A stretch of 64,000 bases of DNA, taken from Mogibacterium sp. (lineage in GTDB: Bacteria; Bacillota; Clostridia; Peptostreptococcales; Anaerovoracaceae). The notes under the pieces were generated by a model. That model searched no databases. It was given only the letters and a program-made list of their open reading frames with translations, and was not told the origin of the DNA. Positions 28,183 through 50,936 of this stretch are shown piece after piece. The stretch is from NCBI GenBank assembly GCA_017512145.1, contig JAFWHB010000008.1:1-64000 (forward strand), read 5' to 3'. The translations under genes were made by a program, and so were the position numbers. Each line of letters begins with the position of its first letter. Positions within the stretch are counted from its first letter, which is position 1.

Positions 28183-28190
28183 GGATAAAT

Positions 28191-28892: not shown

Positions 28893-28921
28893 CAATATCA
28901 TTCAGACAGGAACAGGTAAGC

Positions 28922-30145: not shown

Positions 30146-30236
30146 TCAAATAATAATAGCAAATTACATACAAATACGGCATTTAATGACACTTAAAATG
30201 ACGGTTTCTGTGTAATAATAGTCATAGAACAAGTCA

Positions 30237-30264
30237 GCCGCCATATCTTTATCATCAAGGCGGC
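30237..30264 (+). promoter_or_regulatory. Hairpin in the leader of the surface-protein operon
   Basis: GCCGCC (30237-30242) and GGCGGC (30259-30264) with a 16-nt loop, followed by ATTATTAG. It may be a weak terminator of the sigma-gene transcript or a leader hairpin. The rest of the 153-bp gap is AT-rich and holds no clear consensus promoter. Confidence 0.4.
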
Positions 30265-30298
30265 ATTATTAGTATACATTGAATAAAGGAGACGCCCT

Positions 30299-30833: not shown

Positions 30834-31028
30834 ATGGCAACTCAAGGCGCAATAACAGTCCTTCTGGACATAATTCCTGTTGTAGCAGGAATTCTTCTGC
30901 TAATTGCATTCATACTAGGCAGGAGAGACAGAAAAGGGGAAGAGGACAGACTTAATCATGTAATACAAGCTTTTCAGACTAGCTCTGAAGAATCAGAAAA
31001 ACCGGATAAGGGTGATGACCATGAATAA
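30834..31028 (+). CDS. 64-residue single-span membrane protein, third of the set
   Basis: ATG 30834 lies 5 bp after the previous stop, with GGGGAAGG as ribosome site upstream. Hydrophobic residues ~7-28 (ITVLLDIIPVVAGILLLIAF) are followed by RRDRK and an acidic/polar cytosolic tail (FQTSSEESEKPDKGDDHE). The frame overlaps the start of the giant gene by 8 bp, so translation of the two is likely coupled. No family is recognised. Confidence 0.68.
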   Translation: MATQGAITVLLDIIPVVAGILLLIAFILGRRDRKGEEDRLNHVIQAFQTSSEESEKPDKGDDHE

Positions 31029-34000
31029 CGGAGACAGAAAACTAAATGCCCAGACCCGTAAGCTATTAAAGCGCATGCTGGCACTGCTTATAGCAGTGGT
31101 GCTTGTTGCGGGGCTTGGGCTTTCATATTCAGCGGACAGAGTCCTGCGGGCAACATCGATTCCTGAAGAAGAAGCGGTGGAAGGCGGAGCTGAACCTGCT
31201 CCGGAGGAGGCTCCTGTGACCACACAGGAGATCACCCTTGATTCAGGTAAGCAGGAGCCAGCGAAGGAAGAACCTGCTCCGCAGCCAGAGCCGGAGCCGG
31301 AACCAGAGCCTCAGCCACAGCCAGAGCCTGAGAATGTCGCATCTGCTGAACCTCAGGCCGGTTCGGATACATCTACTGAAAAGCCTGAAGGCGGCAAAGC
31401 CCAGGAGGCAACTGCAGAAGCAGGTGCAGCAGAGACAGAAGCCCAGCCTGAGGCAGTAGTAACCGAAGAGGTGCAGCCTGAGCTTCTGCCTGAACAGGAA
31501 GCTGAACAAGAGGAAGAAGAAATCAAATATCCGGCGCAGAAGCTGACAGCCAAGGCATCAGACGGAGCAATGGTAACAGTAGATGCTCCTGAAGGAGCTC
31601 TTCCTGAAGGAAGCCGTGTAACTATAAAGAGAGTTTCCTCCAAGGCTGCCAAGGCTGCAATCGAAAGCACTCTCGGTGATGACACCGAGCTTGTTGACGT
31701 TGTTGTATACGACATCGTCATCTACGACCACGAAGGCAAAGAGGTTCAGCCGGACTCTAGTGTCAAGGTCTCGATCATAGGAGCTGGCCTTGAGGCCGGA
31801 GAAGAAGCATCTCTCTATCATGTCGATGGTAATTCCGCCGACAAAGTTTCGGATGTCGCTGACCCTGGTCAGGTTTCATTCAATGCTTCTCACTTCTCAG
31901 AGTATGCGATCGCTACCACCAGCAGCGCCGGAGGCGACGATGCCGATACAGGTATCAATACAGTGATGGTCGGCAGCAGTATTACTTTGACTGCTCCGAA
32001 CGGATACAAATCATATACATGGAGCGTAAGCCCTAAGAATTATGTAACAGTATCTGGTAATGGCAGGACAGCAACAGTTACCGGAGTTAAGGCAGGAACA
32101 GTAACAGTATCCTGCAAAATGAGCAGCGGAGGCTGGTTCTCATCATCGACTACTGAAGAATACACAGTCAAAGTCACAGAGCAGCCTCGCACACCGGAGA
32201 TCAGCATTTCACCTAAGACGGCAACACTTAATACTATAGGTGCTACGCAGACCTTCAGAGCTGAGCTTTCGATGATCGATGCAGATAACTCTGTTGTCTG
32301 GACATCCTCTGATCCAAGCATAGCGACCGTTGAGAATGGCGTAGTCACAGCCAAGGATGAGGGAACTGTGACCATAACAGCCTCAGTCTCACCTGAGGAA
32401 GACGAGCTGTACGGCAATACTTATTCAGATTCCGCAACAGTCAATGTGGCATTCTCATCATACAATGTCTACCATTATGCTCTTATACCTGGAGCAAGTG
32501 CAGACACCGTCGGAGCTGCAGGAGCTGACGCGAGCTGGTTCGGCCTTGGCGTTACCAAGGTAAGCGGTGTTCCTAATCCGACATCGATTGCAAACGGAGC
32601 ACATAACTTCACCTACAAGATCGGTGCGGCAGTCAACGGCAAGACTCTGTTCCCGGATCTCACTTACGGTGGAACAACATACAAATATGCCGCACCAGGA
32701 TCTGCAGAGGCAGAGCAGGGCGGGTACTATACCGTAACACCGTTCAGACTGGTTGTAGCGAATGGCGCAAATGCAGGCAACAACAAGTACAACAGCACCG
32801 TAGGCAGCGGCAAGACATATCACCTTGACTACATGGCAGTCCTCAATGAGAAGAGCTATGTAAGTGCAAGCTTTGTCCTGAGGGATGCAGACAGCACCAG
32901 CTACGAGGCTCTGATGGATTACGGCCAGAGATTCAGGGCAGGCACCTCGCAGAGCCAGATCAATAAGCCTTCAGCATCTGTAGTACCTGCGACGAAGAAG
33001 TATGATGGCATAACATACAGCTTTGACGGGTGGTACCTTGATGAAGGCTGCACACAGAAGGCGGACTTTGCAGGAACCATAGAAAGCAACATGACATTCT
33101 ACGGAAGATACATTCCGACGAATGCACGCTACAGAGTCGAATACTACTATGATGGAGTCATAGACGCCTCTCTTACAGAGGTCAAGGGACCGGTCGCGCT
33201 CGGCACAGTTGTAAGCACGTTCGATCCTAAGGCCAAGAACGGATTCAACTTAAGTGATGTCGAGCCATCTTCGATCACTGTCAGCGAGAATGAGGCAGAT
33301 AACATCATCAGAGTTTACTACACCAAGAGACTGGTAACTTACAGAGTCGGTTACTACATTGCAGGAACCAATGAATCCATCGCTCCTGCAGTCAGCAAGA
33401 CGTGTAAGTTCGGAGAGACAGGTACCGGCACAAGACTGGATATCGCCGGTTACACTCCGGCCGATGCTGACAATACAAAGTCAATGGTCATTGAGGCATC
33501 GGGATCAGAAATCAGATTCTACTACTATAAGAACGTAACACTTACAGCTAACAGCGCTGAATTTGCATACAACGGAGAGCCGCACTCAGTTTCGGGATAC
33601 ACGTGCGATCAGCCGGATGCTGACTTCGGAGATATCGCAGCAGGCGCTGAGGGAACTGCCGCAGGCATTTATGAGGCAGCATTCACAGCCGACCTCACAG
33701 GCCGTGTCGACAATACCGGAAGATATATAGTTACCGGAACAAGAGCCGGCAGTCTTGTAATAAGACCGGCAGAAGTTACTGTGACAGCAAATGCTTCGGG
33801 CAAAGCTTACGGTCAGGATGATCCTGAGCTTACGGCTTCTGTCTCGGGACTCGCTGCCGCAGATGAAGGCGCGATCGAATACACAGTTACACGTGATCCT
33901 GGCGAAGAAGTCGGAGAGTATGCTATCCATGCAGCCGGCGAAGCAGAACAGGGCAATTACCATGTGACTTATCAGGACAGCGCATTCACTATCTCGAAGT

Positions 34001-37000
34001 CAGACGAGCTGAATCTGATCGTCAATGGATTTGAGGGTGTCTATGACGGACAGTCCCACGCAGTATCTGCAGTACCTTCTGTAGCTGATGGCACAACAGT
34101 AGAGTACAGCACTGACGGCGGCACGACATGGAGCCCTGAGCCACCTGCAATTACTAACGTAGGTGAGGCAGCTGTCAGCGTGCGTGCTGTAAATCCTGGC
34201 TATGAAGATGCTGCAGCAGAGACTGTACTCAGAATAACACCTAGACCTGTTACCATTACGGCTGTAAGCACCGGCAAGACATTCGGAGAACCTGATCCTG
34301 AACTGACAGCTGATGTGACCGGAACTATCGGTGAAGATACAGTTAGCTATACAGTTCAGCGTGCAGCGGGCGAATCTGCAGGAACTTACGAGATCATGGC
34401 TGAAGCAGCTGCAGATCAGGGCAACTATACTGTCACCACTGTCCCTGGAGAATTCACGATCAATAAGGCTGTAATGGAGACTTCTCCTATGAACATCGTC
34501 AAGGTATACGATGGACAGCCAGTCAGCGGACAGATAGATCAGGCGGTTCCTGCAGGCACAGTTGTCAGCTACAGCGTTGACGGCGAGAACTGGACTGACG
34601 TTCCTCCATCAAGAACAGATGCAGGAATGGTGATGTACACCATAAGGCTTGAGAACCCTGACTATGAGACAGCATTTATCCCTTCAGTTATTTCCATAGC
34701 TAAGAGGAATGTCATCCTCAGATCCGGATCAGACAGCAAGGAATATGACGGCAATGCCCTGACAAACAGCGATGTCTCGGTAACCGGAGATGGCTTTGCA
34801 GAAGGTGAAGGCGCAGAGTTCAACGTTACAGGAACACAGACTGTCGTCGGAACCAGCGCAAATACATTTGAATACACTCTGAATGAGGGAACAAGCGAGC
34901 TTAACTACGACATCTCAACAGAATTCGGCAAGCTCGAAGTTACTTCCAGAGATGCACAGTTCGAGATCAATCTCAAAGTAAATGGCGGAGATTATCTGTA
35001 TGACGGCAAGATGAAGATCGTCAGCGGTTTCGAGAGCCAGTACTTCACACTTAATGGCAACAAATACTATGTCGACGGCATGGAAGCTTATCTCGAAGCA
35101 ACCGATGCCGGCGAGTACACCGTTATCGCAACCGGTGAGCCGCATGTATATGATGCAGCCGAGAACGAGGTCACTGACCAGTTCAAGGTCGGATCAATTG
35201 ACGGCAAGCTGACTATCCGCAAGAGACAGATAACTCTAACATCAGCTTCGGCTAACCGTCCGTACAACGGATCACCTCTTATTAACGAAACAGTAACAGT
35301 CAGCGGAGATGATTTTGCACCTGAAGAGGGAGCATTCTTCAGCGTGACCGGAAAGCAGACAGCTGTCGGTTCAAGCGAGAATACTTTCGCTTACTTCCTG
35401 AACGAGGGAACGAAGGCTGCGAACTACGAGATCACTACTGTTCCTGGATCACTTACCGTTACTTCAAGACCGGATGATGCAAAGTATGAGATAACCGTCC
35501 GCGCAGCAGGCGGCGAATTCACATACGACGGAACCGAGCACGAAGTATCCGGCGTAATGAATTCCGGTGGTGAGGCAGCGGACGAAGACGGAGTGCTTAC
35601 CTTCAAGGTGGACGGACATGATTACAGCGTAAGCGGCCTTACAGCTAAGGCAACAGGTGTAAATGCTGGCACCTACAGGGTAAATGTTACAGGAAGCCCT
35701 GTTGTAAGAGATGAAGAGGGTAATGACGTAACTTCTGAATTCGTTATCAATACTCTCAGCGGAGACCTTGTCATCGCTAAGAGAAGTGTGACACTGGCAT
35801 CAGCAAGTGACAGCCACAGGTACAATGGCAAGCCGCTGATGAACGACAAAGTCACAGTAGGCGGTGATGGATTTGTCCGCGGTGAAGGCGCCGAGTACAT
35901 CGTAACAGGCAGCCAGACACTTGCAGGCTCAAGTCCGAACAGATTCACATATGTGCTCAGCGATGGAACTCTGGCTGAGAACTACGACATCCAGACCGAA
36001 TTCGGAACTCTCACAATTACAAACCGTGATGTCAAGTACGAGATCGAGGCGGTAGCTAAGAGCGGTTCGTTCGTATATGACGGTACAGAGAAATCAGTCA
36101 GCGGACTCGAAGCATATGAATTCGAAGTTGAGGGTTCAAAGTACACTCTCAGCAATGTCAATGCTGAGGTTACCGGTACTGCAGCCGGCAACTACACATC
36201 ACTCATTACAGGAACACCTGTGGTCACAGATGCAGACGGCAACGACGTAACAGATCAGTTCGCGGTCAGCCTTGTTCCTGGCAAGCTCGAGATAACCAGA
36301 AGAGCTGTGATCCTGACATCTGCTGACGCAGAGAAGCAGTATGATGGCAAGCCGCTCACAAACAGCGAGGTAACCATCAGCGGCGACGGTTTTGTCGAGG
36401 GCGAGAATGTAGTAATCGAAGTTACCGGAAGCAGAACTCTTCCGGGCACATCGGAGAATACTTTCAATTACTATGCAGCAGGCGGAACTGACCTGAATAA
36501 TTACGATGTTTCGAATGTACCTGGCAGACTTCTGGTCAGAGCCAGAGATGCAAAGTATGAGATCACAATGAGAGCTCCTGGTCAGAGAGTGCTCTATGAT
36601 GGCAAAGCCCATGAATATGAAGGTTTCGAGACGACCGAGTTCGAGATTGAAGGCAATAAGTTCACAGTATCCGGCATCACAGCAAGCTGCAGCGGAACTG
36701 ATGCAGGCACATACACTGCAGAGGTTAGCGGCACAGCTGTCGTAACAGATTCAGACGGAAATGATGTCACAGGCCAGTTCATCGTGAACACAGAGGCAGG
36801 CGACATCGTGATCCTGCCAAGAGAAGTCGTTCTCACTTCGGGAACTGCTTCTAAAGAATATGACGGACAGGCACTTACCAATGATGAAGTGACAGTCTCA
36901 GGCGAAGGTTTCGCAGAGGGCGAAGGCGCTGCATTCACAGTAACTGGAACCCAGAAGACAGTAGGCTCCAGCGAGAACGTATTCACATACGAACTCAAGA

Positions 37001-40000
37001 GAAATACCAGCGCAGAGAATTATTCAATAACCACAGTACCTGGAACTCTGACCGTAACGAACAGAGATGCGAAGTACAGCATCACAGTCACCGCAAACAG
37101 CGGCAGCTTCAAGTACGACGGAGCTGAGAAGACTGTAGAAGGCCTCATCGAGGACACCTTCACTGTAGACGGCAATGTATACACAGTCAGCGGCCTGACA
37201 GCAGCTGGTACCGGAACACATGCCGGAACATATCCTGTTAACATCACTGGTACAGCAGTAGTAACAGACGCAGACGGCAATGATGTAACAGATCAGTTCG
37301 CGGTAACACCTGTCAATGGAACTCTTGAGATCACCAAGAGGAATGTAATCCTCACATCAGCAAGCGCTGAGAAGGTTTACGACGGAGCTGCACTTGTTAA
37401 CAACGAGGTAACAGTAGGCGGCGATGGCTTCGCTGAGGGCGAGGGCGCAACCTACAATGTCAGCGGTAAGAGAACTATCGTAGGATTTATCGCAAATCTC
37501 TTCAGCTACATCCTGAATGACGGTACAGAGGCAGGAGACTACAACATTTCAGTAATACCTGGACAGCTGAACATCTTCGGAAGACCTGAAGCTGAGAAGT
37601 ACGAAGTAAGTGTTGCTGCAAACAGCGGCACATTCGTATACGACGGTGAAGACCATACTGTCAGCGGACTTGCAGGCGAAGAGGAAGGCAAGCTCACAGT
37701 AGCAGCAGGTGGCAATACATACACGATCAGCGGCCTCACAGCATCAGCAACACTCAGAGATGCAGGCAGCGCATCCGTAGTAGTTGAGGGCAAGCCGGTA
37801 GTTACAGACTCTGAAGGCAACGATGTAACAAGCGAGTTCAGGATCAAGCCTGTAAACGGAACCATCGAAGTCCAGAAGAGAAATGTCATCCTCACATCTG
37901 CATCAGAATCCAAGGAGTATGATGGCGAGGCACTGACTAATGACGAGGTTACAGTCTCCGGCGACGGATTCGTTGAAGGTGAGGGAGCAAGCTATGAAGT
38001 AACAGGATTACAGAAGCTGGTCGGATCAAGCGAGAACAGCTTCACCTACAAGCTGGATGCAGGAACTAAGGCAGATAACTACAGCGTATCTGTAGTACCT
38101 GGAACCCTGACAGTCACTAACAGAGACGCCAAGTACGAGATAACTGTCGAGGCTAAGAGCGGCAGCTACAAGTACAGCGGTGCAGAGAAGTCAGTAGAAG
38201 GCTTCAAGGAAGAGACCTTCGAGATCGAGGGCAACACATACACAGTCAGTGGCCTTACAGCTAGTGCTGCTGCAACAGACGCAGGAACATATCCTGTAAA
38301 CGTCACAGGTACTGCAGTCGTTACAGATGCAGCTGGCAACGATGTTACAGACCAGTTCGCAGTAACACCTGTGAACGGCACACTCGAGATCACTAAGAGA
38401 TATGTAGAGCTCACTTCAGCATCTGCTAACAAGCAGTACGACGGCAAGAGCCTGACAGCACAGGAAGTAACAGTCTCAAGAGACGGCTTCGCAGAAGGCG
38501 AGGGTGCTGAATTCACAGTCACAGGCAGCCAGACACTGGTTGGATCGAGCGACAACAGCTTCAGCTATAGCCTGACCGCAGTAACTAAGGCAGATAACTA
38601 CATAATCAAGACAGTCCCTGGAAGACTTACAGTATCTGACAGAGAGGCTAAGTACGAGATCACACTCAAGCCTAAGAGTGATGCAGTAGTCTACGACGGA
38701 CAGAAGCACGTAGTCGAGGGCTTCGAGTCTACCGAGTTCACCTTCGACGGAGTGACATACTCAGTCACAGGTATCAATTCAAGAGCTGCCGGAATGAACG
38801 CAGGTGAGCATCCTGTAGTCATCGAGGGCGGAGCAGTTATCCTTGATGCAGACGGAAATGATGTAACTACTCAGTTCATCACCAACATCGCACCTGCAAG
38901 TCTGACTATCAGCAAGAGATCAGTAACCCTGACATCCGGAACATCCGCTAAGGAATACGACGGACAGGCACTGACTAACGATGAAGTGACAGTCACAGGC
39001 GATGGCTTCGCAGAGGGCGAAGGCGCTGCATTCACAGTAACCGGAACTCAGAAGACAGTCGGCTCCAGTGAGAACGCATTCACATATGAGCTGAAGCGTG
39101 GCACATCAGCTGACAACTACAACATCACAACAGTTCCTGGAACTCTGACCGTAACGAACAGAGATGCCAAGTACAGCATCACAGTCACCGCAAACAGCGG
39201 CAGCTTCAAGTACGACGGAGCTGAGAAGACTGTAGAAGGACTCGTTGCTGATACCTTCGAGGTAGAGGGCAACACTTATACAGTCAGTGGCCTGACAGCA
39301 GCTGGTACCGGAACACATGCAGGAACATATCCAGTTAACATCACCGGTACTGCAGTCGTAACAGACGCTGACGGCAGTGATGTAACAGACCAGTTTGCAG
39401 TAACACCTGTAAATGGAACTCTTGAGATCACCAAGAGGAATGTCATCCTCACATCAGCAAGCGCTGAAAAGATCTATGACGGACAGCCACTGACGAATGC
39501 AGAAGTCGCAGTAACAGGCGACGGCTTCGCTGAGGGCGAAGGCGCAACCTACGCTGTCAGCGGCAAGAGAACGATCGTAGGCTTCATCGCAAATCTCTTC
39601 AGCTACATCCTGAATGATGGAACTAATGAAGGAGACTACAACATCACAGTAGTACCTGGACAGCTGAACATCTTCGGAAGACCTGAAGCTGAGAAGTATG
39701 AAGTAAGCGTTGCTGCAAACAGCGGCTCCTTCATGTACGACGGCGAAGCCCACGAGGTAAGCGGCCTTGTTGGCGAAGAGGAAGGCAAGCTCACAGTAGC
39801 AGTCGGAGGCAATACTTATACGATCAGCGGCCTGACAGCATCAGCATCCCTCAGAGATGCAGGAACGGCTGCAGTCGCAGTCGAAGGCCAGCCTTCAGTA
39901 ACAGACGCAGATGGCAACGATGTAACATCCGAGTTCAGGATCAAGCCTGTAAACGGAACCATCGAAGTCCAGAAGAGAAATGTCATCCTCACATCTGCAT

Positions 40001-43000
40001 CAGACTCCAAGCAGTATGACGGCGAGGCACTGACAAATAACGAAGTAACAGTAACAGGCGACGGATTCGTTGAAGGTGAGGGCGCAAGCTACGAAGTAAC
40101 AGGCTCACAGAAGCTGGTCGGCTCAAGCGAGAACAGCTTCACCTACAACCTGAACGCAGGAACCAAGGCAGACAACTACAGTGTATCTGTAGTACCTGGA
40201 ACCCTGACAGTCACTAACAGAGACGCCAAGTACGAGGTATCAGTCGAGGCTAAGAGCGGCAGCTACAAGTACAGCGGCGAAGAGAGAACTGCAGCAGGAT
40301 TCAAGGGCGGCAAGGTTCTTGAAGACGGAACATTTACTGTAGATGTCACGGCTGATGGCAACACATACACAGTCAGCGGCCTGACAGCAAGTGCAACCGC
40401 AACTGATGCAGGCACATATTCTGTCAACGTCACAGGTATTGCAGTCGTAACAGACGCTGCAGGCAATGATGTTACAGAGCAGTTCGCAGTAACACCTGTG
40501 AACGGAACACTCGAGATCGGCAAGAGATATGTCGAGCTGACATCTGCTAATGCTAACAAGCAGTACGACGGCAAGAGCCTGACAGCTCAGGAAGTAACCG
40601 TTTCAAGAGACGGTTTCGCAGAGGGCGAAGGTGCAGAATATGCAGTCACAGGCAGCCAGACACTGGTCGGCTCTAGCGACAACACATTCAGCTACAGCCT
40701 CAAAGAAGGCACCAAGGCAGATAACTACATAATCAAGACAGTTCCTGGAAGACTTACAGTATCTGACAGAGAGGCCAAGTTCGAGATCACACTCAGACCT
40801 AAGAGCGGCGCGGCCACATATGACGGACAGAAGCATGTTGTAGAAGGCTTCGAGGAGACCGAATTCACATTCGACGGAGTGACCTACACAGTCACAGGCA
40901 TCAATGCAAGAGCAGCCGGAACTAGTGCAGGAGAGCATCCGGTCGTAATCGAAGGCGGAGCAGTTATCCTTGACGCAGATGGCAATGATGTAACTACCCA
41001 GTTCATCACTAACATCGCACCTGCAAGTCTGACGATCGGCAAGAGATCAGTCACCCTGACATCCGGCACATCCGCTAAGGAATATGACGGACAGGCACTG
41101 ACAAACGATGTAGTTACAGTCACAGGCGATGGCTTCGCAGAGGGCGAGGGCGCTGCATTCAAGGTAACAGGAACCCAGAAGACAGTAGGCTCAAGCGAGA
41201 ACACATTCACATATGAGCTGAAGCGTGGCACATCGGCAGACAACTACAACATCACCACAGTTCCTGGAACTCTGACCGTAACGAACAGAGATGCGAAGTA
41301 CAGCATCACAGTGAACGCGAACAGCGGCAGCTTCAAGTACGACGGAACTGAGAAGAATGTAGAAGGCCTCATCGAGGACACCTTCACTGTAGACGGCAAT
41401 GTATACACAGTAAGCGGCCTGACAGCACAGGCAGCAGCAGTACATGCAGGAACATATCCTGTTAACATTACCGGAATCGCAGTCGTAACAGACGCAGATG
41501 GCAATGATGTAACAGATCAGTTCGCTGTAACACCTGTTAACGGAACTCTCGAGATCACTAAGAGGAACGTCATCCTGACATCTGCAAATGCAGAGAAGGT
41601 ATACGACGGAACAGCTCTCAGAAATGATGAGATCACAGTTACAGGCGATGGCTTCGCAGAAGGCCAGGGAGCTGAATACAAGGTAACAGGCACAAGGACC
41701 ATCAGAGGAGCGAGCGAGAACAGCTTCACATATGCTCTGACAGAAGGAACTTTGGCAGCAGATTACGACATCCGCACCATCTTCGGAATGCTGACAATTA
41801 GCGGCAGACCGGAAGATGCCAAGTATGAAGTAAGCGTTGCAGCTGCAAGCGGATCATTCAAATATGACGGCGCAGAGCATGCGGTATCCGGCCTCGTACT
41901 GGCAGACGGAACAGCATTCGCAGACGGTGAGGCAGTAACATTCACTGCAGGCGGCAACGAGTACACACTGAGTGGACTCCGCGCAGGAGCTTCGGCAGTA
42001 GCTGCAGGCGAATACAAAGTAGCTGTAACCGGAACCCCTATAGTCAGGGATGCTGATGGCAATGATGTAACCGAAGAATTCATCATCAGCATGTCAGCCG
42101 GCCAGATGAACATCGTCAAGAGAGACGTAGTCCTGACATCAGCAGATGCTGTCAAAGAGTACGACGGCAAGCCGCTGACAAATGGCGAAGTTACAGTCTC
42201 CGGAGATGCATTTGCCGAGGGCGAAGGCGCTGAATTCACTGTAACAGGTACACAGACGGTCGCAGGAACAAGCGAGAACACATTCGTCTACAGCCTGACC
42301 AGCGGAACTTCAGCAAATAACTACAACATAATTACAAGATTCGGAAGTCTGAACGTAACTAACAGAAACGCCAAGTACAGCGTAACCATGAGAGCTAACA
42401 GCGGCTCGTTCAAGTATGACGGAACCGCAAAGACCGTAGAGGGCTTCGAAGGAGACAGAGTCCTTGAGGATGGCTCACATGTAAGAGACTTCAGCGTTGA
42501 AGGCAATATCTACACAGTAAGCGGCCTCACAGCTTCAGGTTCTGCCCTCCATGCGGGCAGCCACAGCGTAGCCGTGACTGGAAGTCCAGTGGTAAGAGAC
42601 GCTGATGGCAATGATGTAACAGAGCAGTTCAGCGTTTTGACAGAGAACGGAACACTGGATATCTCAAAGAGATCAGTCATTCTGAGCTCTGCAGGCGGCT
42701 CCGCTATGTACACAGGCGATCCGCTGACTGCAGCAGACATCACAGTCTCAGGAGATGGCTTCGCTGAGGGCGAAGGCGCTGTCTACACTGTAAGCGGCAG
42801 CCAGACCATACCGGGCTCAAGCGAGAACAAATTCACATACATTCTCGCAGGCGGAACTTTGGCAGAAGACTACGATATCTCCACTGAATTCGGAACACTT
42901 ACGATCCTCGGAAGAGGCGACGCTAAGTACGAGATCACAGCTTATGCTGCAGGCGGAAGCGCTGTCTATGACGGCGAAGAGCACACTGCAGGTGGATTTG

Positions 43001-46000
43001 TCTCACCGGACGGTGAAGTCATCGAGAACGGTAAGCCTCTTACATACAAGCTGAAGGGCAAGACATACACGGTCGAGGGACTGAATGCTGTGGCAGCAGG
43101 AACTAACGCAGGCAGCTATCAGGTAAATGTTACAGGATCACCTCTCGTAAGAGACGCTGACGGCAATGATGTTTCGTCAGAGTTCCTGGTACACACTGTA
43201 AACAGCAGCCTCGAGATCGCTAAGAGAAGCGTGACTCTGACCTCAGCTGACGGCAGCCAGAGCTACAACGGCAGCCCGCTGACCAATGACAAAGTCACAG
43301 TAGGCGGCGACGGATTTGTCCGCGGAGAGGGCGCCGAGTTCACAGTAACAGGCAGCCAGACCGTAGCAGGCTCAAGCCCGAACAGCTTCACATATGCACT
43401 GAATGAGGGCACTTTGGCAGAGAACTACGACATCCTGACGGAGCTTGGAACTCTCACGGTAACCGACCGTGACGTCAAGTACGAGATCGAGGCTGAGGCA
43501 GCAAGCGGCAGCTATCTCTACGACGGCAAAGTGAAGTCGGCTGATGGCATAGTCAAGACCACATTCGATGTAGAGGGACATACATATACTCTCAGCGGCA
43601 TCAGCTCAGCTGTAACAGCACAGGATGCCGGCATCTACAACAATGTAATAACCGGAGAGCCTATCGTAACAGACGAGGCGGGCAATGACGTTACCGCACA
43701 GTTCGCGGTAAGCCTCGTACCTGGCAAGCTCGAGATAACCAAGAGAACAGTCACCCTCACATCTGCGGATGCTGAGAAGCAGTACGACGGCACACCACTC
43801 ACTAACACCGAAGTAGCTGTAAGCGGCGACGGATTTGCTGAGGGCGAAAGCGCAGTCTACAGAGTGACAGGTTCACAGCTCATAACAGGACGCTCAGGTA
43901 ATGAGTTCGAGTATGTACTTGCTACAGGCACCAAAGCAGGCAACTACGAGATCTCGAAGGTTATTGGCACACTGCTCGTAAGAGACAGAGATGCAAAGTA
44001 TGAGATTACACTGAGAGCTCCTGGCCAGAGAGCAGTCTACGACGGAGCGGCCCATGAATATGAAGGCTTCGAGACGACAGAGTTCGAGATCGAAGGCAAT
44101 AAGTACACAGTATCCGGCGTCACAGTAAGCTGCAGCGGAACAGACGCAGGCACATACACTGCAAAGATCGAAGGCTCAGCTGTTGTAACAGATGCAGACG
44201 GAAATGATGTAACAGGCCAGTTCATCGTGAACACAGATGCAGGCGAAATCGTGATCCTGCCAAGAGAAGTCGTTCTCACATCCGGAACATCTGCTAAGGA
44301 ATACGACGGCGAGGCACTGACAAATGATGCAGTCACAGTCTCAGGCGATGGATTCATCGAAGGAGAAGGCGCATCGTTCACAGTAACAGGCAGCCAGAAG
44401 ACAGTCGGCTCCAGCGCTAACAGCTTCACATATGAGCTGAATGACGGAACCAAGGCAGGCAACTACCGCATCAGCGAAGTACCTGGCACCCTGACAATCA
44501 CTAACAGGGATGCGAAGTACAGCATCACAGTGAATGCAAACAGCGGCAGCTTCAAGTATGACGGAACTGAGAAGACTGTAGAAGGACTTATCAGAGACAC
44601 CTTCGAGGTCGACGGCAACACTTACACAGTCAGCGGCCTGACAGCAGCAGGTACCGGAACACATGCGGGAACATATCCTGTAAGCATCAACGGAACAGCA
44701 GTCGTAACTGACGCAGATGGCAATGATGTAACAGATCAGTTCGCAGTAACACCAGTAAGCGGTACTCTTGAGATAACAAAGAGGAACGTCATCCTCACAT
44801 CTGCAAGTGCTGAGAAGGTATACGATGGAACAGCACTTGTAAGCAATGAAGTAACAGTTACAGGCGACGGCTTCGCTGAAGGCGAAGGCGCAACCTACAA
44901 CGTCAGCGGCAAGAGAACTATCGTAGGCTTCATCGCAAATCTCTTCAGCTACATCCTGAATGACGGTACAGAGGCAGGCGACTACAACATCTCAGTAGTA
45001 CCTGGTCAGCTGAACATCTTCGGAAGACCTGAGGCTGAGAGATACGAAGTAAGCGTAGCAGCTAACAGCGGCACCTTCATGTACGACGGCGAAGCCCACG
45101 AGGTCAGCGGCCTTGTAGGCGAAGAGGAAGGCAAGATCACAGCCAGAGTCGGCGGCAATGCTTACACGATCAGCGGACTCACAGCATCAGCAACACTGAG
45201 AGATGCTGGAAAAGCTGCAGTAACGATCGAAGGCAAGCCAGTCGTAACCGACGCTGAAGGCAACGATGTAACTAACGAGTTCAGGATCAAGCCTGTAAAC
45301 GGAACCATCGAAGTCACCAGAAGGTCAGTAGTTATGACCTCCGCATCAGACTCCAAGCAGTATGACGGCGAGGCACTGACTAATGACGAAGTGACAGTAA
45401 CAGGCGATGGATTCGCAGAGGGCGAGGGTGCAAGCTACAGCGTAACAGGATTACAGAAGCTGGTCGGATCAAGCGAGAACAGCTTCACCTACAAGCTGGA
45501 TGCAGGAACCAAGGCAGATAACTACAGCGTATCTGTAGTACCTGGAACCCTGACAGTAACTAACAGAGATGCCAAGTACGAAGTAACTGTTGAAGCTAAG
45601 AGTGGATCATACAAGTACAGCGGTGCAGAGAAGTCAGTAGAAGGCTTCAAGGAAGAGACTTTCGAGGTCGAAGGCAACACATACACAGTCAGCGGCCTGA
45701 CAGCAAGTGCTGCAGCAACAGACGCCGGTACATATCCGGTCAACGTTGTCGGCACAGCTAAGGTCACAGACGCAGCTGGCAATGATGTGACAGACCAGTT
45801 CGCAGTAACTCCTGTGAACGGAACACTCGAGATCACCAGAAGATACATCGAGCTGACATCTGCTAATGCTAACAAGCAGTACGACGGCAAGAGCCTGACT
45901 GCACAGGAAGTCACAGTCTCAAGAGACGGCTTCGCTGAAGGCGAGGGTGCTGACTTCACTGTAACAGGCAGCCAGACACTGGTTGGTTCAAGTGACAACA

Positions 46001-49000
46001 CATTCAGCTACAGCCTCAGGGAAGGCACCAAGGCTGAGAACTACATCATCAAGACAGTTCCTGGCAAACTTACAGTATCCGACAGAGCGGCCAAGTACGA
46101 GATCACACTCAGGCCAAGCAGCGATGCAGTAGTTTACGACGGACAGAAGCATGTAGTTGAGGGCTTCGAGGAGACCGAGTTCACATTCGATGGAGTGACA
46201 TACACAGTCACAGGCATCAATGCAAGAGCAGCCGGAATGAACGCTGGTGAGCATCCTGTAGTAATCGAAGGCGGAGCAGTTATCCTCGACGCAGACGGCA
46301 ATGATGTGACGACACAGTTCATCACACATATCGCTCCTGCAAGCCTCACGATCAGCAAGAGAGCGGTCACCCTGACATCCGGAACATCCGCTAAGGAGTA
46401 TGACGGACAGGCACTGACGAATGCTGAAGTAACAGTCTCAGGTGAAGGCTTCGCAGAGGGCGAGGGCGCTGAATTCAAGGTAACAGGAACCCAGAAGACA
46501 GTAGGATCCAGCGAGAACGTATTCACATACGAGCTGAAACGCGGAACATCGGCAGATAACTACAACATCACTACAGTACCTGGAACTCTGACCGTAACAA
46601 ACAGAGATGCCAAGTACAGCATCACAGTTACTGCAAACAGCGGCAGCTTCAAGTACGACGGAACTGAGAAGGCGGTAGAAGGCCTCACCGAAGAAACCTT
46701 CGAGGTAGAGGGTAACACTTATACCGTAAGCGGCCTGACAGCACAGGCAGCAGCAGTACATGCCGGAACATATCCTGTCAACATCATAGGAACAGCAGTT
46801 GTCAGGGATGATGCAGGTAACGATGTATCTGATCAGTTCGCAGTGACACCTGTAAATGGCACACTTGAGATCACCAGGAGAACGGCAGTATTCACATCAG
46901 CAGATGCTGAGAAGGAATATGACGGACAGCCACTGACTAATAATGAAGTCGCAGTTACAGGTGATGGCTTCGCTGAAGGCGAGGGCGCTGAATTCACAGT
47001 GACAGGCAGCAGAGTGCTTGCAGGTGAATCAGAGAATTCATTCACATACGCACTCACTGAAGGCACTTTGGCAGCTGACTACGATATATCAGTAGTACCT
47101 GGCAAGCTCACTGTTAATAACAGAAGCAAGAAGTTCGAGATATCCCTCAAGCCTGTACCGGGTGCAGCACTTTATGACGGAGCAGAGCACAGGACCGAAG
47201 GATTCGAGAAGAGCGAGTTCACATTCGGTGGAGTGACATACACTGTATCCGGCCTGAGTGCATCAGCTTCCGGAACAGATGCAGGCAGATATCCGGTCAA
47301 TGTAACCGGCAAGGCTGCAGTCACAGATCCTGACGGCAATGATGTAACAGATCAGTTCAGCATCAGCGTCATGCCGGCAGAGCTCGTGATCAATCCGAGA
47401 ACAGTCATCATGACATCCGCATCGGCAACCGGAGAGTACAATGGTGAAGAGCTCAGAAGCGAGGAAGTAACGGTAACAGGCGACGGATTTGCAGAGGGCG
47501 AAGGCGCAGAGTACACATTCACCGGAGCACAGACACTGGTCGGAATCTCAGAGAACACCTTCGAGTATGCTTTGACCGAAGGAACAAAGGCTGAGAACTA
47601 CGTCATCACGACAGCCTGTGGAACACTGAACGTCACAGGACGTGAAACCGCATACAGCGTGACAGTCCGTGCAAACAGCGGCACCTTCAAGTATGACGGT
47701 GCAGAGAAGGCAGTCGACGGATTCGTTACATCAACATTCGATGTAGATGGCAACACATACACAGTAAGCGGCCTGACAGCACATGCAGCCGCAGTACATG
47801 CAGGCAAATATCCGGTCAACATCATAGGAACTGCAGTCGTAAGAGATGCAGCGGGCAATGATGTATCTGATCAGTTCAGGGTAGAGACAGTACCTGGAAC
47901 ACTTGAGATCACACGCAGAGCTGTCACCATTACTTCCGGCTCAGCTGAGAAGGCATACGACGGCGGCGCGATCACATCAGATGAGATCAGCGTAGGCGGC
48001 GACGGATTCGCAGAGGGCGAAGGTGCTGCATACGAGTTCTCAGGATCAAGGATCATCCCTGGAAGCAGCGAGAATGCATTCACATACACGCTGAACGAGG
48101 GAACTTTGGCATCTGATTACGATATCCGCACCGAGTACGGAATGCTCGCTATCACCAAACTGTCAGAGGATGCCCGCTACGAGATCGCAGTCAGCGCAAG
48201 AGGCGGCAGCTTCAAGTACGATGGTGAAGAGCACAGCGCAGGCGGCCTGATCTCCAGATCAGCAGGCAGGAAGGCTGCAAATAGTGAGACTAATGAAGAT
48301 TCCGAGCTCAAAGTCGTTATCAACGGACACACATACACAGTGACCGGACTTGAGGCATCAAGAACTGAGACGAACGCCGGCAGCTACAAGGTCAACGTGA
48401 CCGGCACACCAGTGGTACTCGACTCTAACGGTAACGATGTGACAGATCAGTTCGTGATCAGATCGGAATCCGCAGTTCTGAACATTGCAAAGCGTGAGAT
48501 CACTCTGACTTCAGGTTCATCGACTCATGCATACAACGGCAAGCCACTGACCAACGGCAACGTAGAGGTCAGCGGAGACGGATTTGCTGAAGGCGAGGGC
48601 GCATCCTATGATGTGACCGGAACCAGAACAGTCGTAGGAACCAGCAGCAACGATTTCACATACAGTCTGAATGATGGAACAAGTGCTGACAACTACACGA
48701 TCAGCACAGTCTTCGGACAGCTGAATGTAACCGGAAGAGATGCTAAGTATCTGCTCACGATGACACCTCAGAGCGGCTCATACCTGTATGACGGAGATGA
48801 GAAGAGAGTATCCGGATTCATCAGTACACATGCTGTCATAGAAGGCAACAGATACGAGGTCAGCGGCCTTACAGCATCTGCTGAGGGAACTTCAGCAGGC
48901 AAGTATAAAGTCAAAGTATCCGGCACACCGGTAGTAACTGACGCTGCTGGAAATGATGTAAGCGATCAGTTCGCAGTAGAGGTAGAGCCTGCAACACTCG

Positions 49001-49833
49001 AGATCAGACCGAGACAAATCGTGCTGAGAAGCCCTGATGTCTCAAAGGAATACGATGGAACACCTCTCACAGGTGAAGAAGTCACAGTAGAGGGCGACGG
49101 ATTCGCAGGAGACGACGGAGTTGCTTTGTCGAATCATTCAAGCAGGACTATCGTAGGTGTCACACAGAATTCATTCGACTGGACATTCAACGAAGGCACT
49201 GATGCAGGCAACTACGATGTAAGCACAGTATTCGGATACATCAGCATCACCGGACGTGACCGCAAGTACGAGGTCAAGCTTGTTGCTAACAGCGACGCTG
49301 TAGAATACGACGGCAATGAGCATACAGTAACCGGATTTGCAGAGACCGAATTCGTTATTGAGAATAATGAATTCAATGTAACAGGTATAGAGTCATCAGC
49401 TACTGGTACGGAGCCTGGAGTATACGGAACTGTACTTGAAGGCGATGCGGTTGTCTCGGATGCTGATGGCCACGATGTGACCGAAGAGTTCGCGGTATCA
49501 TATGTAAGCGGAGCACTCACGATCACAGAGAAGCCTCAGGCAGCTGAAGAGGCTCCTGGAGCACCGGCAGCAACCGGCGGAGACGATGAAGACGGCGGCG
49601 ATAACGGCGGAGGCGGACAGCCTGCAGATACAGGCGCAGCAGGCGAGACCGGAGCTGCAGAACAGGCAGAGGCAGGAACCGCATCCGTTGAGGATACCGG
49701 CATACCGTATGCTAACGCACCGTCAGGCTACTGGGCTCTCCTGAACCTGATCATGGCAGTCCTGTCAGTTGTCCTTGCACTGATCAACGGCATCAGATGG
49801 CTGGTAAGCAGGAAGAAAGACGATGAGGATTAA
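31021..49833 (+). CDS. Giant repeat-array surface protein (6,270 aa), putative adhesin
   Basis: ATG 31021 is preferred over GTG 31012 because AAGGGTG lies 6 bases upstream. Residues ~15-37 are an export signal, followed to ~165 by a Pro/Glu/Ala-rich wall-spanning-type linker with a QPEPEPEPEPQPQPEPE run. A ZU5-like module (~175-300) and two BIg2-like Ig domains (~310-485, TSSDPSIATVENGVVTAKDE) follow. Next are InlB-B/Flg_new-type stretches (YSFDGWYLDEGC) and MBG-type repeats (GKAYGQDDPELTA, ~830-1225). Then come 28 repeats (residues 1228-6169), a Gly/Asp/Ala linker and a C-terminal membrane segment (WALLNLIMAVLSVVLALI) with RKKDDED. No LPxTG motif is seen. The frame continues open past the TAA. 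The likely role is a long stalk-like adhesin; ligand unknown. It is co-transcribed with three small membrane proteins. Confidence 0.9.
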   Translation: MNNGDRKLNAQTRKLLKRMLALLIAVVLVAGLGLSYSADRVLRATSIPEEEAVEGGAEPAPEEAPVTTQEITLDSGKQEPAKEEPAPQPEPEPEPEPQPQPEPENVASAEPQAGSDTSTEKPEGGKAQEATAEAGAAETEAQPEAVVTEEVQPELLPEQEAEQEEEEIKYPAQKLTAKASDGAMVTVDAPEGALPEGSRVTIKRVSSKAAKAAIESTLGDDTELVDVVVYDIVIYDHEGKEVQPDSSVKVSIIGAGLEAGEEASLYHVDGNSADKVSDVADPGQVSFNASHFSEYAIATTSSAGGDDADTGINTVMVGSSITLTAPNGYKSYTWSVSPKNYVTVSGNGRTATVTGVKAGTVTVSCKMSSGGWFSSSTTEEYTVKVTEQPRTPEISISPKTATLNTIGATQTFRAELSMIDADNSVVWTSSDPSIATVENGVVTAKDEGTVTITASVSPEEDELYGNTYSDSATVNVAFSSYNVYHYALIPGASADTVGAAGADASWFGLGVTKVSGVPNPTSIANGAHNFTYKIGAAVNGKTLFPDLTYGGTTYKYAAPGSAEAEQGGYYTVTPFRLVVANGANAGNNKYNSTVGSGKTYHLDYMAVLNEKSYVSASFVLRDADSTSYEALMDYGQRFRAGTSQSQINKPSASVVPATKKYDGITYSFDGWYLDEGCTQKADFAGTIESNMTFYGRYIPTNARYRVEYYYDGVIDASLTEVKGPVALGTVVSTFDPKAKNGFNLSDVEPSSITVSENEADNIIRVYYTKRLVTYRVGYYIAGTNESIAPAVSKTCKFGETGTGTRLDIAGYTPADADNTKSMVIEASGSEIRFYYYKNVTLTANSAEFAYNGEPHSVSGYTCDQPDADFGDIAAGAEGTAAGIYEAAFTADLTGRVDNTGRYIVTGTRAGSLVIRPAEVTVTANASGKAYGQDDPELTASVSGLAAADEGAIEYTVTRDPGEEVGEYAIHAAGEAEQGNYHVTYQDSAFTISKSDELNLIVNGFEGVYDGQSHAVSAVPSVADGTTVEYSTDGGTTWSPEPPAITNVGEAAVSVRAVNPGYEDAAAETVLRITPRPVTITAVSTGKTFGEPDPELTADVTGTIGEDTVSYTVQRAAGESAGTYEIMAEAAADQGNYTVTTVPGEFTINKAVMETSPMNIVKVYDGQPVSGQIDQAVPAGTVVSYSVDGENWTDVPPSRTDAGMVMYTIRLENPDYETAFIPSVISIAKRNVILRSGSDSKEYDGNALTNSDVSVTGDGFAEGEGAEFNVTGTQTVVGTSANTFEYTLNEGTSELNYDISTEFGKLEVTSRDAQFEINLKVNGGDYLYDGKMKIVSGFESQYFTLNGNKYYVDGMEAYLEATDAGEYTVIATGEPHVYDAAENEVTDQFKVGSIDGKLTIRKRQITLTSASANRPYNGSPLINETVTVSGDDFAPEEGAFFSVTGKQTAVGSSENTFAYFLNEGTKAANYEITTVPGSLTVTSRPDDAKYEITVRAAGGEFTYDGTEHEVSGVMNSGGEAADEDGVLTFKVDGHDYSVSGLTAKATGVNAGTYRVNVTGSPVVRDEEGNDVTSEFVINTLSGDLVIAKRSVTLASASDSHRYNGKPLMNDKVTVGGDGFVRGEGAEYIVTGSQTLAGSSPNRFTYVLSDGTLAENYDIQTEFGTLTITNRDVKYEIEAVAKSGSFVYDGTEKSVSGLEAYEFEVEGSKYTLSNVNAEVTGTAAGNYTSLITGTPVVTDADGNDVTDQFAVSLVPGKLEITRRAVILTSADAEKQYDGKPLTNSEVTISGDGFVEGENVVIEVTGSRTLPGTSENTFNYYAAGGTDLNNYDVSNVPGRLLVRARDAKYEITMRAPGQRVLYDGKAHEYEGFETTEFEIEGNKFTVSGITASCSGTDAGTYTAEVSGTAVVTDSDGNDVTGQFIVNTEAGDIVILPREVVLTSGTASKEYDGQALTNDEVTVSGEGFAEGEGAAFTVTGTQKTVGSSENVFTYELKRNTSAENYSITTVPGTLTVTNRDAKYSITVTANSGSFKYDGAEKTVEGLIEDTFTVDGNVYTVSGLTAAGTGTHAGTYPVNITGTAVVTDADGNDVTDQFAVTPVNGTLEITKRNVILTSASAEKVYDGAALVNNEVTVGGDGFAEGEGATYNVSGKRTIVGFIANLFSYILNDGTEAGDYNISVIPGQLNIFGRPEAEKYEVSVAANSGTFVYDGEDHTVSGLAGEEEGKLTVAAGGNTYTISGLTASATLRDAGSASVVVEGKPVVTDSEGNDVTSEFRIKPVNGTIEVQKRNVILTSASESKEYDGEALTNDEVTVSGDGFVEGEGASYEVTGLQKLVGSSENSFTYKLDAGTKADNYSVSVVPGTLTVTNRDAKYEITVEAKSGSYKYSGAEKSVEGFKEETFEIEGNTYTVSGLTASAAATDAGTYPVNVTGTAVVTDAAGNDVTDQFAVTPVNGTLEITKRYVELTSASANKQYDGKSLTAQEVTVSRDGFAEGEGAEFTVTGSQTLVGSSDNSFSYSLTAVTKADNYIIKTVPGRLTVSDREAKYEITLKPKSDAVVYDGQKHVVEGFESTEFTFDGVTYSVTGINSRAAGMNAGEHPVVIEGGAVILDADGNDVTTQFITNIAPASLTISKRSVTLTSGTSAKEYDGQALTNDEVTVTGDGFAEGEGAAFTVTGTQKTVGSSENAFTYELKRGTSADNYNITTVPGTLTVTNRDAKYSITVTANSGSFKYDGAEKTVEGLVADTFEVEGNTYTVSGLTAAGTGTHAGTYPVNITGTAVVTDADGSDVTDQFAVTPVNGTLEITKRNVILTSASAEKIYDGQPLTNAEVAVTGDGFAEGEGATYAVSGKRTIVGFIANLFSYILNDGTNEGDYNITVVPGQLNIFGRPEAEKYEVSVAANSGSFMYDGEAHEVSGLVGEEEGKLTVAVGGNTYTISGLTASASLRDAGTAAVAVEGQPSVTDADGNDVTSEFRIKPVNGTIEVQKRNVILTSASDSKQYDGEALTNNEVTVTGDGFVEGEGASYEVTGSQKLVGSSENSFTYNLNAGTKADNYSVSVVPGTLTVTNRDAKYEVSVEAKSGSYKYSGEERTAAGFKGGKVLEDGTFTVDVTADGNTYTVSGLTASATATDAGTYSVNVTGIAVVTDAAGNDVTEQFAVTPVNGTLEIGKRYVELTSANANKQYDGKSLTAQEVTVSRDGFAEGEGAEYAVTGSQTLVGSSDNTFSYSLKEGTKADNYIIKTVPGRLTVSDREAKFEITLRPKSGAATYDGQKHVVEGFEETEFTFDGVTYTVTGINARAAGTSAGEHPVVIEGGAVILDADGNDVTTQFITNIAPASLTIGKRSVTLTSGTSAKEYDGQALTNDVVTVTGDGFAEGEGAAFKVTGTQKTVGSSENTFTYELKRGTSADNYNITTVPGTLTVTNRDAKYSITVNANSGSFKYDGTEKNVEGLIEDTFTVDGNVYTVSGLTAQAAAVHAGTYPVNITGIAVVTDADGNDVTDQFAVTPVNGTLEITKRNVILTSANAEKVYDGTALRNDEITVTGDGFAEGQGAEYKVTGTRTIRGASENSFTYALTEGTLAADYDIRTIFGMLTISGRPEDAKYEVSVAAASGSFKYDGAEHAVSGLVLADGTAFADGEAVTFTAGGNEYTLSGLRAGASAVAAGEYKVAVTGTPIVRDADGNDVTEEFIISMSAGQMNIVKRDVVLTSADAVKEYDGKPLTNGEVTVSGDAFAEGEGAEFTVTGTQTVAGTSENTFVYSLTSGTSANNYNIITRFGSLNVTNRNAKYSVTMRANSGSFKYDGTAKTVEGFEGDRVLEDGSHVRDFSVEGNIYTVSGLTASGSALHAGSHSVAVTGSPVVRDADGNDVTEQFSVLTENGTLDISKRSVILSSAGGSAMYTGDPLTAADITVSGDGFAEGEGAVYTVSGSQTIPGSSENKFTYILAGGTLAEDYDISTEFGTLTILGRGDAKYEITAYAAGGSAVYDGEEHTAGGFVSPDGEVIENGKPLTYKLKGKTYTVEGLNAVAAGTNAGSYQVNVTGSPLVRDADGNDVSSEFLVHTVNSSLEIAKRSVTLTSADGSQSYNGSPLTNDKVTVGGDGFVRGEGAEFTVTGSQTVAGSSPNSFTYALNEGTLAENYDILTELGTLTVTDRDVKYEIEAEAASGSYLYDGKVKSADGIVKTTFDVEGHTYTLSGISSAVTAQDAGIYNNVITGEPIVTDEAGNDVTAQFAVSLVPGKLEITKRTVTLTSADAEKQYDGTPLTNTEVAVSGDGFAEGESAVYRVTGSQLITGRSGNEFEYVLATGTKAGNYEISKVIGTLLVRDRDAKYEITLRAPGQRAVYDGAAHEYEGFETTEFEIEGNKYTVSGVTVSCSGTDAGTYTAKIEGSAVVTDADGNDVTGQFIVNTDAGEIVILPREVVLTSGTSAKEYDGEALTNDAVTVSGDGFIEGEGASFTVTGSQKTVGSSANSFTYELNDGTKAGNYRISEVPGTLTITNRDAKYSITVNANSGSFKYDGTEKTVEGLIRDTFEVDGNTYTVSGLTAAGTGTHAGTYPVSINGTAVVTDADGNDVTDQFAVTPVSGTLEITKRNVILTSASAEKVYDGTALVSNEVTVTGDGFAEGEGATYNVSGKRTIVGFIANLFSYILNDGTEAGDYNISVVPGQLNIFGRPEAERYEVSVAANSGTFMYDGEAHEVSGLVGEEEGKITARVGGNAYTISGLTASATLRDAGKAAVTIEGKPVVTDAEGNDVTNEFRIKPVNGTIEVTRRSVVMTSASDSKQYDGEALTNDEVTVTGDGFAEGEGASYSVTGLQKLVGSSENSFTYKLDAGTKADNYSVSVVPGTLTVTNRDAKYEVTVEAKSGSYKYSGAEKSVEGFKEETFEVEGNTYTVSGLTASAAATDAGTYPVNVVGTAKVTDAAGNDVTDQFAVTPVNGTLEITRRYIELTSANANKQYDGKSLTAQEVTVSRDGFAEGEGADFTVTGSQTLVGSSDNTFSYSLREGTKAENYIIKTVPGKLTVSDRAAKYEITLRPSSDAVVYDGQKHVVEGFEETEFTFDGVTYTVTGINARAAGMNAGEHPVVIEGGAVILDADGNDVTTQFITHIAPASLTISKRAVTLTSGTSAKEYDGQALTNAEVTVSGEGFAEGEGAEFKVTGTQKTVGSSENVFTYELKRGTSADNYNITTVPGTLTVTNRDAKYSITVTANSGSFKYDGTEKAVEGLTEETFEVEGNTYTVSGLTAQAAAVHAGTYPVNIIGTAVVRDDAGNDVSDQFAVTPVNGTLEITRRTAVFTSADAEKEYDGQPLTNNEVAVTGDGFAEGEGAEFTVTGSRVLAGESENSFTYALTEGTLAADYDISVVPGKLTVNNRSKKFEISLKPVPGAALYDGAEHRTEGFEKSEFTFGGVTYTVSGLSASASGTDAGRYPVNVTGKAAVTDPDGNDVTDQFSISVMPAELVINPRTVIMTSASATGEYNGEELRSEEVTVTGDGFAEGEGAEYTFTGAQTLVGISENTFEYALTEGTKAENYVITTACGTLNVTGRETAYSVTVRANSGTFKYDGAEKAVDGFVTSTFDVDGNTYTVSGLTAHAAAVHAGKYPVNIIGTAVVRDAAGNDVSDQFRVETVPGTLEITRRAVTITSGSAEKAYDGGAITSDEISVGGDGFAEGEGAAYEFSGSRIIPGSSENAFTYTLNEGTLASDYDIRTEYGMLAITKLSEDARYEIAVSARGGSFKYDGEEHSAGGLISRSAGRKAANSETNEDSELKVVINGHTYTVTGLEASRTETNAGSYKVNVTGTPVVLDSNGNDVTDQFVIRSESAVLNIAKREITLTSGSSTHAYNGKPLTNGNVEVSGDGFAEGEGASYDVTGTRTVVGTSSNDFTYSLNDGTSADNYTISTVFGQLNVTGRDAKYLLTMTPQSGSYLYDGDEKRVSGFISTHAVIEGNRYEVSGLTASAEGTSAGKYKVKVSGTPVVTDAAGNDVSDQFAVEVEPATLEIRPRQIVLRSPDVSKEYDGTPLTGEEVTVEGDGFAGDDGVALSNHSSRTIVGVTQNSFDWTFNEGTDAGNYDVSTVFGYISITGRDRKYEVKLVANSDAVEYDGNEHTVTGFAETEFVIENNEFNVTGIESSATGTEPGVYGTVLEGDAVVSDADGHDVTEEFAVSYVSGALTITEKPQAAEEAPGAPAATGGDDEDGGDNGGGGQPADTGAAGETGAAEQAEAGTASVEDTGIPYANAPSGYWALLNLIMAVLSVVLALINGIRWLVSRKKDDED
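35779..39432 (+). repeat. Seven-unit block (units 3-9), left copy of a segmental duplication
   Basis: Units 3-9 correspond one-to-one, in order and in individual length, with units 17-23 at 43222-46875. Both blocks are 3,654 nt. Shared unit-specific features include FVRGEG (3/17), APGQR (4/18), IANLFSYILNDGT (6/20) and the KRYVELTSA/RRYIELTSA SRDGFAEG type (8/22). Within the block, units 5-8 recur as units 9-12. Confidence 0.85.
43222..46875 (+). repeat. Seven-unit block (units 17-23), right copy of the segmental duplication
   Basis: Equal-length counterpart of 35779-39432, offset by 7,443 bp. The copies have diverged by many substitutions but by no net length change, so the reading frame and domain register are preserved. 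Confidence 0.85.
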
Positions 49834-49899
49834 GAATCCCAGACTGCTAGTGCAGATGCAGAAGAAGAATCAGATTCGAAGAAGCACAGAGGATCTGCA

Positions 49900-50088
49900 G
49901 TGATCGCAGCGATAGTACTCGCGATAGTATCAGTGGTAGCATTCTTCCTCACAGAGGATATGAGCAATACCATGGCATACTTCGATAAGTACACGATACT
50001 GATGGCTGTACTTCTCATCGGAACCCTTATAACCAACCTGCTTGGCAAGAAGAAATCCGATGATTCTGAGGATTCTTCAGATGAATAG
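49900..50088 (+). CDS. In-frame continuation of the giant protein: two-helix membrane segment after the stop codon
   Basis: From the TAA at 49831-49833 the same frame stays open for 84 codons (49834-50085) to TAG. The decoded stretch begins with an acidic/Ser/Lys linker (ESQTASADAEEESDSKKHRG). Two hydrophobic segments follow (SAVIAAIVLAIVSVVAFFL and TILMAVLLIGTLITNLL) around a TEDMSNTMAYFDKY loop, then a KKKSDDSEDSSDE tail. If translated alone it could start at GTG 49900, with AGAGGA about 6 bases upstream, giving 62 aa. Its linker and tail look like an extension of the giant protein's anchor (RKKDDED), and the TEDM..xMxxxDKYT loop resembles C-terminal anchors of other clostridial surface proteins as I recall them. 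So this is a nonsense-split anchor, a read-through product or a separately translated subunit. Confidence 0.55.
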   Translation: MIAAIVLAIVSVVAFFLTEDMSNTMAYFDKYTILMAVLLIGTLITNLLGKKKSDDSEDSSDE

Positions 50089-50116
50089 AGACGGATAAGA
50101 AACTGAATAATTAAAA

Positions 50117-50155
50117 ACGCCGGAGCACTTTCTAACTGAGTGCTCCGGCGTCTTT
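50117..50155. terminator. Bidirectional terminator after the giant gene
   Basis: ACGCCGGAGCACT (50117-50129) pairs with AGTGCTCCGGCGT (50139-50151). It has a TCTTT run on the right and AAAAA on the left, serving the convergent gene at 50193. The stem is another member of the CGCCGGAG family. Confidence 0.88.
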
Positions 50156-50192
50156 ATCAAATGGATGAGATCTTCTCTTACGTACTCGGATA

Positions 50193-50936
50193 TTATTTGA
50201 CCATAGTCTTCCTGATCATTCTCCTGCGTGCATTCTCGATGTCCGTTACCACCTCGTATGTCGAGAGAACAGCCTTTGCCCAGTTCATGCGGCTGTTGTA
50301 TGCCATTCCCGTGAGGACGCCGCCCAGTGCAAAGAATCCGACAGAATATATCAAGACGTTGGAGGTCCCGAACACTGTAGCCAGAACACCAATCACTGCC
50401 AGCATGTAGAATGCGACAGCCAGCTGCTCATAGAAGTTGGCAGCTTCGCTTGATTTGCTGGCCCTGCCGCTGTATCCCTTGATCGAATTGCTATTCTCGC
50501 AATAATTGAAGAAATAGCCGGCCATCGATGCATCTGTCGGATCAAACGGTCCAAGATTCTTATCTTTGAACAGCTTCTCTGCCATCTTTATTACACCTTC
50601 GCGCTGATACTTGTTTGACAGAACACCTTTCTTCAGCACTTCGTCATCTGCCTGAACCATGTCTGACAGACATCTCGTTACTATCTTCGACTTCACATTC
50701 TTGAAAAGAAGACGCTGAAAACCCTGCAAAATGCTGCCAATGACAAAACACAGCAGGATTATTACGACTACTTTCTCAAAATCCTCTTCGACGCCAAGAC
50801 GGACATAGAGAAGGCCTGGTGCGTATTCATTAATCAGTGGCGATGATCCGTACAGGATTATTCCGCCGGAGAGGATAACGTTAAAGAATCCTATAAGACT
50901 TAGTTTATCAATAATACCTGATGTGATTTTGTCCAT
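50193..50936 (-). CDS. Membrane protein of unknown function (247 aa)
   Basis: ATG at 50936 follows AGGAG at 8 bases. Two hydrophobic segments near the N-terminus (~14-30 and 55-75) and two near residues 170-215 (YMLAVIGVLATVFG, LIYSVGFFALGGVLTGMAYN) flank a cytosolic middle. The middle is rich in Lys/Asp and contains the motif DPTDASMAGYFFNYCENSNS. A C-terminal basic helix ends in RRRMIRKTMVK. The two-plus-two arrangement around a soluble core recalls small membrane modules seen in defence or sensing systems, but I recognise no specific family. It is monocistronic and convergent with the surface operon. Confidence 0.65.
   Translation of the reverse strand: MDKITSGIIDKLSLIGFFNVILSGGIILYGSSPLINEYAPGLLYVRLGVEEDFEKVVVIILLCFVIGSILQGFQRLLFKNVKSKIVTRCLSDMVQADDEVLKKGVLSNKYQREGVIKMAEKLFKDKNLGPFDPTDASMAGYFFNYCENSNSIKGYSGRASKSSEAANFYEQLAVAFYMLAVIGVLATVFGTSNVLIYSVGFFALGGVLTGMAYNSRMNWAKAVLSTYEVVTDIENARRRMIRKTMVK

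Follow-up and report, generated by a model that had tools for sequence, protein, structure and literature searches.

An in-frame stop codon divides the three-helix FILTED anchor of a giant Mogibacterium surface protein, probably through a recent nonsense mutation

What is to be made of a stop codon behind which the reading frame stays open and goes on to encode further membrane helices? The question is raised by a 64,000-nucleotide stretch of Mogibacterium sp. (positions 1 to 64,000 of contig JAFWHB010000008.1, assembly GCA_017512145.1; hereafter the window), on whose plus strand the open reading frame list and translation give a gene of 6273 codons for a giant surface protein (31012–49833, GTG start). 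The protein consists of a signal peptide, MBG/immunoglobulin-like repeats (its first 1333 amino acids match the Pfam families MBG_2 and Big_2), an acidic linker, a membrane helix (helix 1) and the charged sequence RKKDDED, followed by TAA at 49831–49833; the last residues before the stop are YWALLNLIMAVLSVVLALINGIRWLVSRKKDDED, with SRKKDDED at the very end. Past the TAA the same frame is open for 84 codons up to a TAG at 50086–50088, and the translation between the two stops, ESQTASADAEEESDSKKHRGSAVIAAIVLAIVSVVAFFLTEDMSNTMAYFDKYTILMAVLLIGTLITNLLGKKKSDDSEDSSDE, runs from a charged linker through two hydrophobic helices to an acidic end. An earlier note on this DNA had drawn attention to the open frame and its two additional helices, and sequence, translation and hydropathy bear it out, the read-through translation having three helices that span the stop. 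We find that the two sides of the stop belong, by homology, to one known domain, and consider it probable that a real and recent nonsense mutation truncates this domain.

An open run of 84 codons would arise at random at this composition with p ~0.01, and the tail uses codons in the manner of coding sequence in this frame alone (+0.47 bits per codon, against -1.03 and -0.63 in the other forward frames). For these reasons, but above all because the tail is homologous to an established domain, we take it to be more than a chance open frame. The domain is described by the NCBIfam model NF052597, "FILTED domain-containing surface protein", which has 110 positions and a curated cut-off of 40 bits. 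The 84 residues of the tail alone match positions 36–109 with 74.4 bits (E 8e-21), while the 42 residues upstream of the stop match positions 1–32 with 29.1 bits, or 21.3 bits when placed inside a longer stretch. Thus the giant protein as ended at the TAA scores below the cut-off, and the region read through the stop scores above it, at 109.8 bits. The first part of the domain (49732–49830) holds the YWALLNLI helix and its positive and acidic end; the second (49834–50085), delimited by the model together with paralogues and orthologues, holds the charged linker, helices 2 and 3 around a TEDM...DKYT loop, and the acidic end, and the TAG behind it is the natural end of the frame. The WALLNL, TED and D-x-[WY]-[TS] motifs and all three membrane helices are present according to hydropathy, alignment and predicted structure, and are divided over the two sides of the stop. 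Judged by these matches, both sides are one curated three-helix domain, FILTED, interrupted by the TAA in its variable charged linker, and the proposal in the earlier note of a three-helix anchor made as one chain is strongly supported as the form of the family. No Pfam model reached its cut-off for the tail, a tblastn search of plasmid records returned no relative, and a literature search found no description of a FILTED domain.

A predicted structure agrees with this assignment. The AlphaFold2 model, built from the window's region with the TAA read as a residue together with 16 relatives (mean predicted local distance difference test score 74.6, predicted template modelling score 0.57), places helices at 12–46, 62–83 and 97–115 and short strands at 9–11, the invariant W-A ahead of helix 1, and at 89–91, in the loop between helices 2 and 3. 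The two strands may pair with each other and, if they do, parts from both sides of the stop lie in one fold. A fold search of the PDB gave no match. From the distribution of charges, the RKK end of helix 1 and the linker would be cytoplasmic, and helices 2 and 3 would make up a hairpin whose TED loop faces outwards, with the acidic end inside.

If the domain is ancestrally one chain, its relatives should carry it without a break, and they do. Alignment of homologous C-termini, which the earlier note had recommended, shows no stop at this site in any relative's listed domain, and the relatives carry, rather than lack, the segment that follows it. Two paralogues in the window's own genome (frames of 2989 and 967 amino acids on contig C20) are large surface proteins with the whole FILTED domain in one open frame. 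The same contig has two sortase-family matches (G000:C20 10868–11245 and 20942–21187), one of them ~4 kb away from where the nearer paralogue ends. Among 47 genomes of the genus no other match to the region contains a stop; a search there with helix 1 alone found 32 places at E <= 1e-9, each coinciding by coordinates with a FILTED place and each with helices 2 and 3 attached, the window's being the sole interrupted one. Wider searches covered 350 genomes at the family level and a sample of 394 genomes at the order level, with counts referring to the listed matches over the cut-off: the family-wide matches are uninterrupted except for the window's, and the order-wide list has 146 places, of which the other 145 are uninterrupted. 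The finding is the same in public draft genomes, most of which belong to uncultured Lachnospiraceae and other Clostridiales, and a few to Coriobacteriia and others. Two order-level matches with apparent stops inside (G505 and G472) were set aside; at 31 bits they fall below the cut-off and are unrelated small membrane proteins with their own terminal stop at the end of the match. A FILTED fragment covering model positions 67–110 lies behind unrelated stop-rich sequence at G017:C33 ~269–400 (L084) and is probably the relic of a surface protein gene that has been lost.

The nearest relatives of the giant protein are frames of 4102 amino acids in genome G009 and 3603 amino acids in genome G040, both with an intact anchor, and beside them the window's tail looks no worse for its position behind a stop. 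Its NF052597 score of 74.4 bits compares with 77.0 and 64.1 bits in these two intact orthologues; its protein identity to the G040 tail is 51%, against 45% between the two; and its nonsynonymous divergence (dN) from G040 is 0.40, against 0.47 between the two, where synonymous divergence (dS) is near saturation, so that absolute ratios are not to be read. It contains no second stop and no frameshift. By these sequence measures the tail is without decay, which leaves three possibilities: a stop that is recent relative to the split from the G009 and G040 relatives, a tail that is still in use, or an incorrect base.

Of the alternatives listed in the earlier note, a recent nonsense mutation fares best, given a stop unique to this copy and an undecayed tail, and we regard it as the probable explanation. 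The ancestral form would have been a single chain, a giant or large surface protein with its three-helix anchor as in all relatives, in which a nonsense codon arose in the variable charged linker between helices 1 and 2. The stop lies within the final 2% of the gene, behind the whole of helix 1 and its stop-transfer charges, and truncation at this position is likely to be tolerated: the shortened product would keep the signal peptide, the ectodomain, helix 1 and the RKK stop-transfer charges, so that export by the signal peptide and retention in the membrane by helix 1 are probable. Helices 2 and 3 would be transcribed and not translated. The tail is probably still transcribed, since the plus strand showed no terminator-like site between TAA and tail; a simple terminator scanner found none on that strand from 49500 to 50400. 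By inspection and folding, a strong plus-strand hairpin followed by CTTTAT (50116–50151, -29 kcal/mol, z -8.1) is a likely transcription terminator past the TAG, though no run of five T follows it. Two points weigh against the nonsense mutation: the intactness of the tail fits its ongoing translation equally well, and a single consensus base of one assembly cannot by itself be told from an error. When viral contigs were scanned for the exact pattern, no second copy of the stop site came up.

The second of these points leads to the best of the competing explanations, that the TAA is a wrong consensus base and that the true gene, like those of its relatives, specifies the three helices in one unbroken chain. 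The absence of a stop at this position from every relative and the undecayed tail are both as such an error would have it, and the assembly, with 33 contigs and 95.7% completeness, looks like a draft or a metagenome bin. On the other hand, the stop sits in a short region tolerant of truncation, which random error would rarely strike: by our estimate it would land there ~1.6% of the time (105 of ~6357 codons), a location that is only suggestive as an argument against a base error. No other broken gene drew attention in the window, in which no systematic test for such genes was made. On balance we think an erroneous base unlikely, if a good deal easier to entertain than the remaining explanations. 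A literature search for comparable cases of read-through or of nonsense codons in metagenome bins yielded nothing useful.

A third possibility is that the gene has been split into an adhesin with one helix and a two-helix subunit with a start of its own, translated from GTG 49900 on the same messenger RNA and assembling with it in the membrane. The earlier note had seen AGAGGA at a suitable distance from this GTG, and the sequence is indeed there, six bases ahead (plus strand, 49888–49902); the tail is conserved, and the model, in which both sides of the stop appear to form one fold, would in principle allow the pieces to reassemble. Yet a Shine-Dalgarno-like sequence also precedes an in-frame start in this region of 15 of 39 intact domains, so the signal at GTG 49900 is not above the background of intact domains. 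The AGAGGA encodes Arg-Gly in the linker and follows from the codons common for this pair, AGA being the preferred Arg codon. A start at the GTG would also lose the KKHRG charges just ahead of helix 2, and in none of the relatives could a separate gene for the two helices be established: the short frames that hold only the tail, in G006, G036, G043 and G205, all lie at contig edges. The internal start is thus possible but unsupported, and we hold the split gene to be improbable; the further case in which the stop is fixed and helices 2 and 3 from GTG 49900 reassemble with helix 1 is slightly more doubtful again. If true, it would make the anchoring of a giant adhesin depend on a second, independently translated protein. 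In a common sub-group of FILTED domains (e.g. L008, L012, L022, L029 and L032) the linker ahead of helix 2 reads N-R-G-K-K-M-L, and its codons place AGAGG ~7 bases before an ATG in a manner resembling an internal ribosome binding site. Most of this AGAGG-ATG pattern in FILTED linkers is accounted for by codon preference, with internal starts still conceivable.

Programmed read-through of the TAA, giving short and long anchors, we consider very improbable. The tail is in frame and conserved, and the strong hairpin comes after it and not before, as read-through would have it, but the RNA 3' of the stop is no more structured than shuffled sequences (z +0.76), and there is no conserved recoding signal, because no relative has any stop there. 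TAA also ends 12 of the 31 genes of the window; it is an ordinary stop in this genome, which rules out an alternative genetic code. At this locus an ordinary mutation that cuts the gene short, or else a wrong base, looks more likely than a new mechanism, and neither recoding nor the separate subunit, both raised in the earlier note, found support.

Upstream of the giant gene, at 27646–30694 of the window, are genes for a signal-peptidase-like protein, a GGDEF protein, a sigma-70-like regulator and a small single-pass membrane protein, of which the last two are also conserved in G009. The locus there is syntenic with the window's: the sigma-factor-like gene (65% identity) and the small single-pass protein (48%) precede the 4102-amino-acid giant. 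G009:C11:38000-57000 (L081) and G179:C60:14000-33000 (L093), filed in different genera, have 15,388 bases in common at 99.994% identity, which points to wrong binning of a contig or to very recent transfer and leaves the genus of the G009 orthologue uncertain.

These results identify the C-terminus of the giant adhesin with a known three-helix anchor and indicate that, in its predicted form, the protein is probably a truncated allele. Provided that the stop is genuine, this strain offers a natural experiment on whether FILTED helices 2 and 3 are required to hold such proteins, as the genus yielded no other anchor with helix 1 alone; should the stop be erroneous, the end of the gene will have to be re-annotated.

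Among known systems, the closest likeness is to the FILTED domain itself (NF052597): the window has the same C-terminal three-helix region at the end of a large surface protein, with the motifs WALLNLI, FxLTED and D-[KR]-[WY]-T, and differs in having a stop between helix 1 and helix 2, which none of the other copies found possesses. The truncated protein also resembles LPXTG-type sortase anchors, in that it ends in a helix followed by positive charges, and its genome has four sortase-family matches. It differs from them in giving no LPXTG-type domain match at its C-terminus, and the FILTED domain, unlike such anchors, goes on with two further helices in all relatives.

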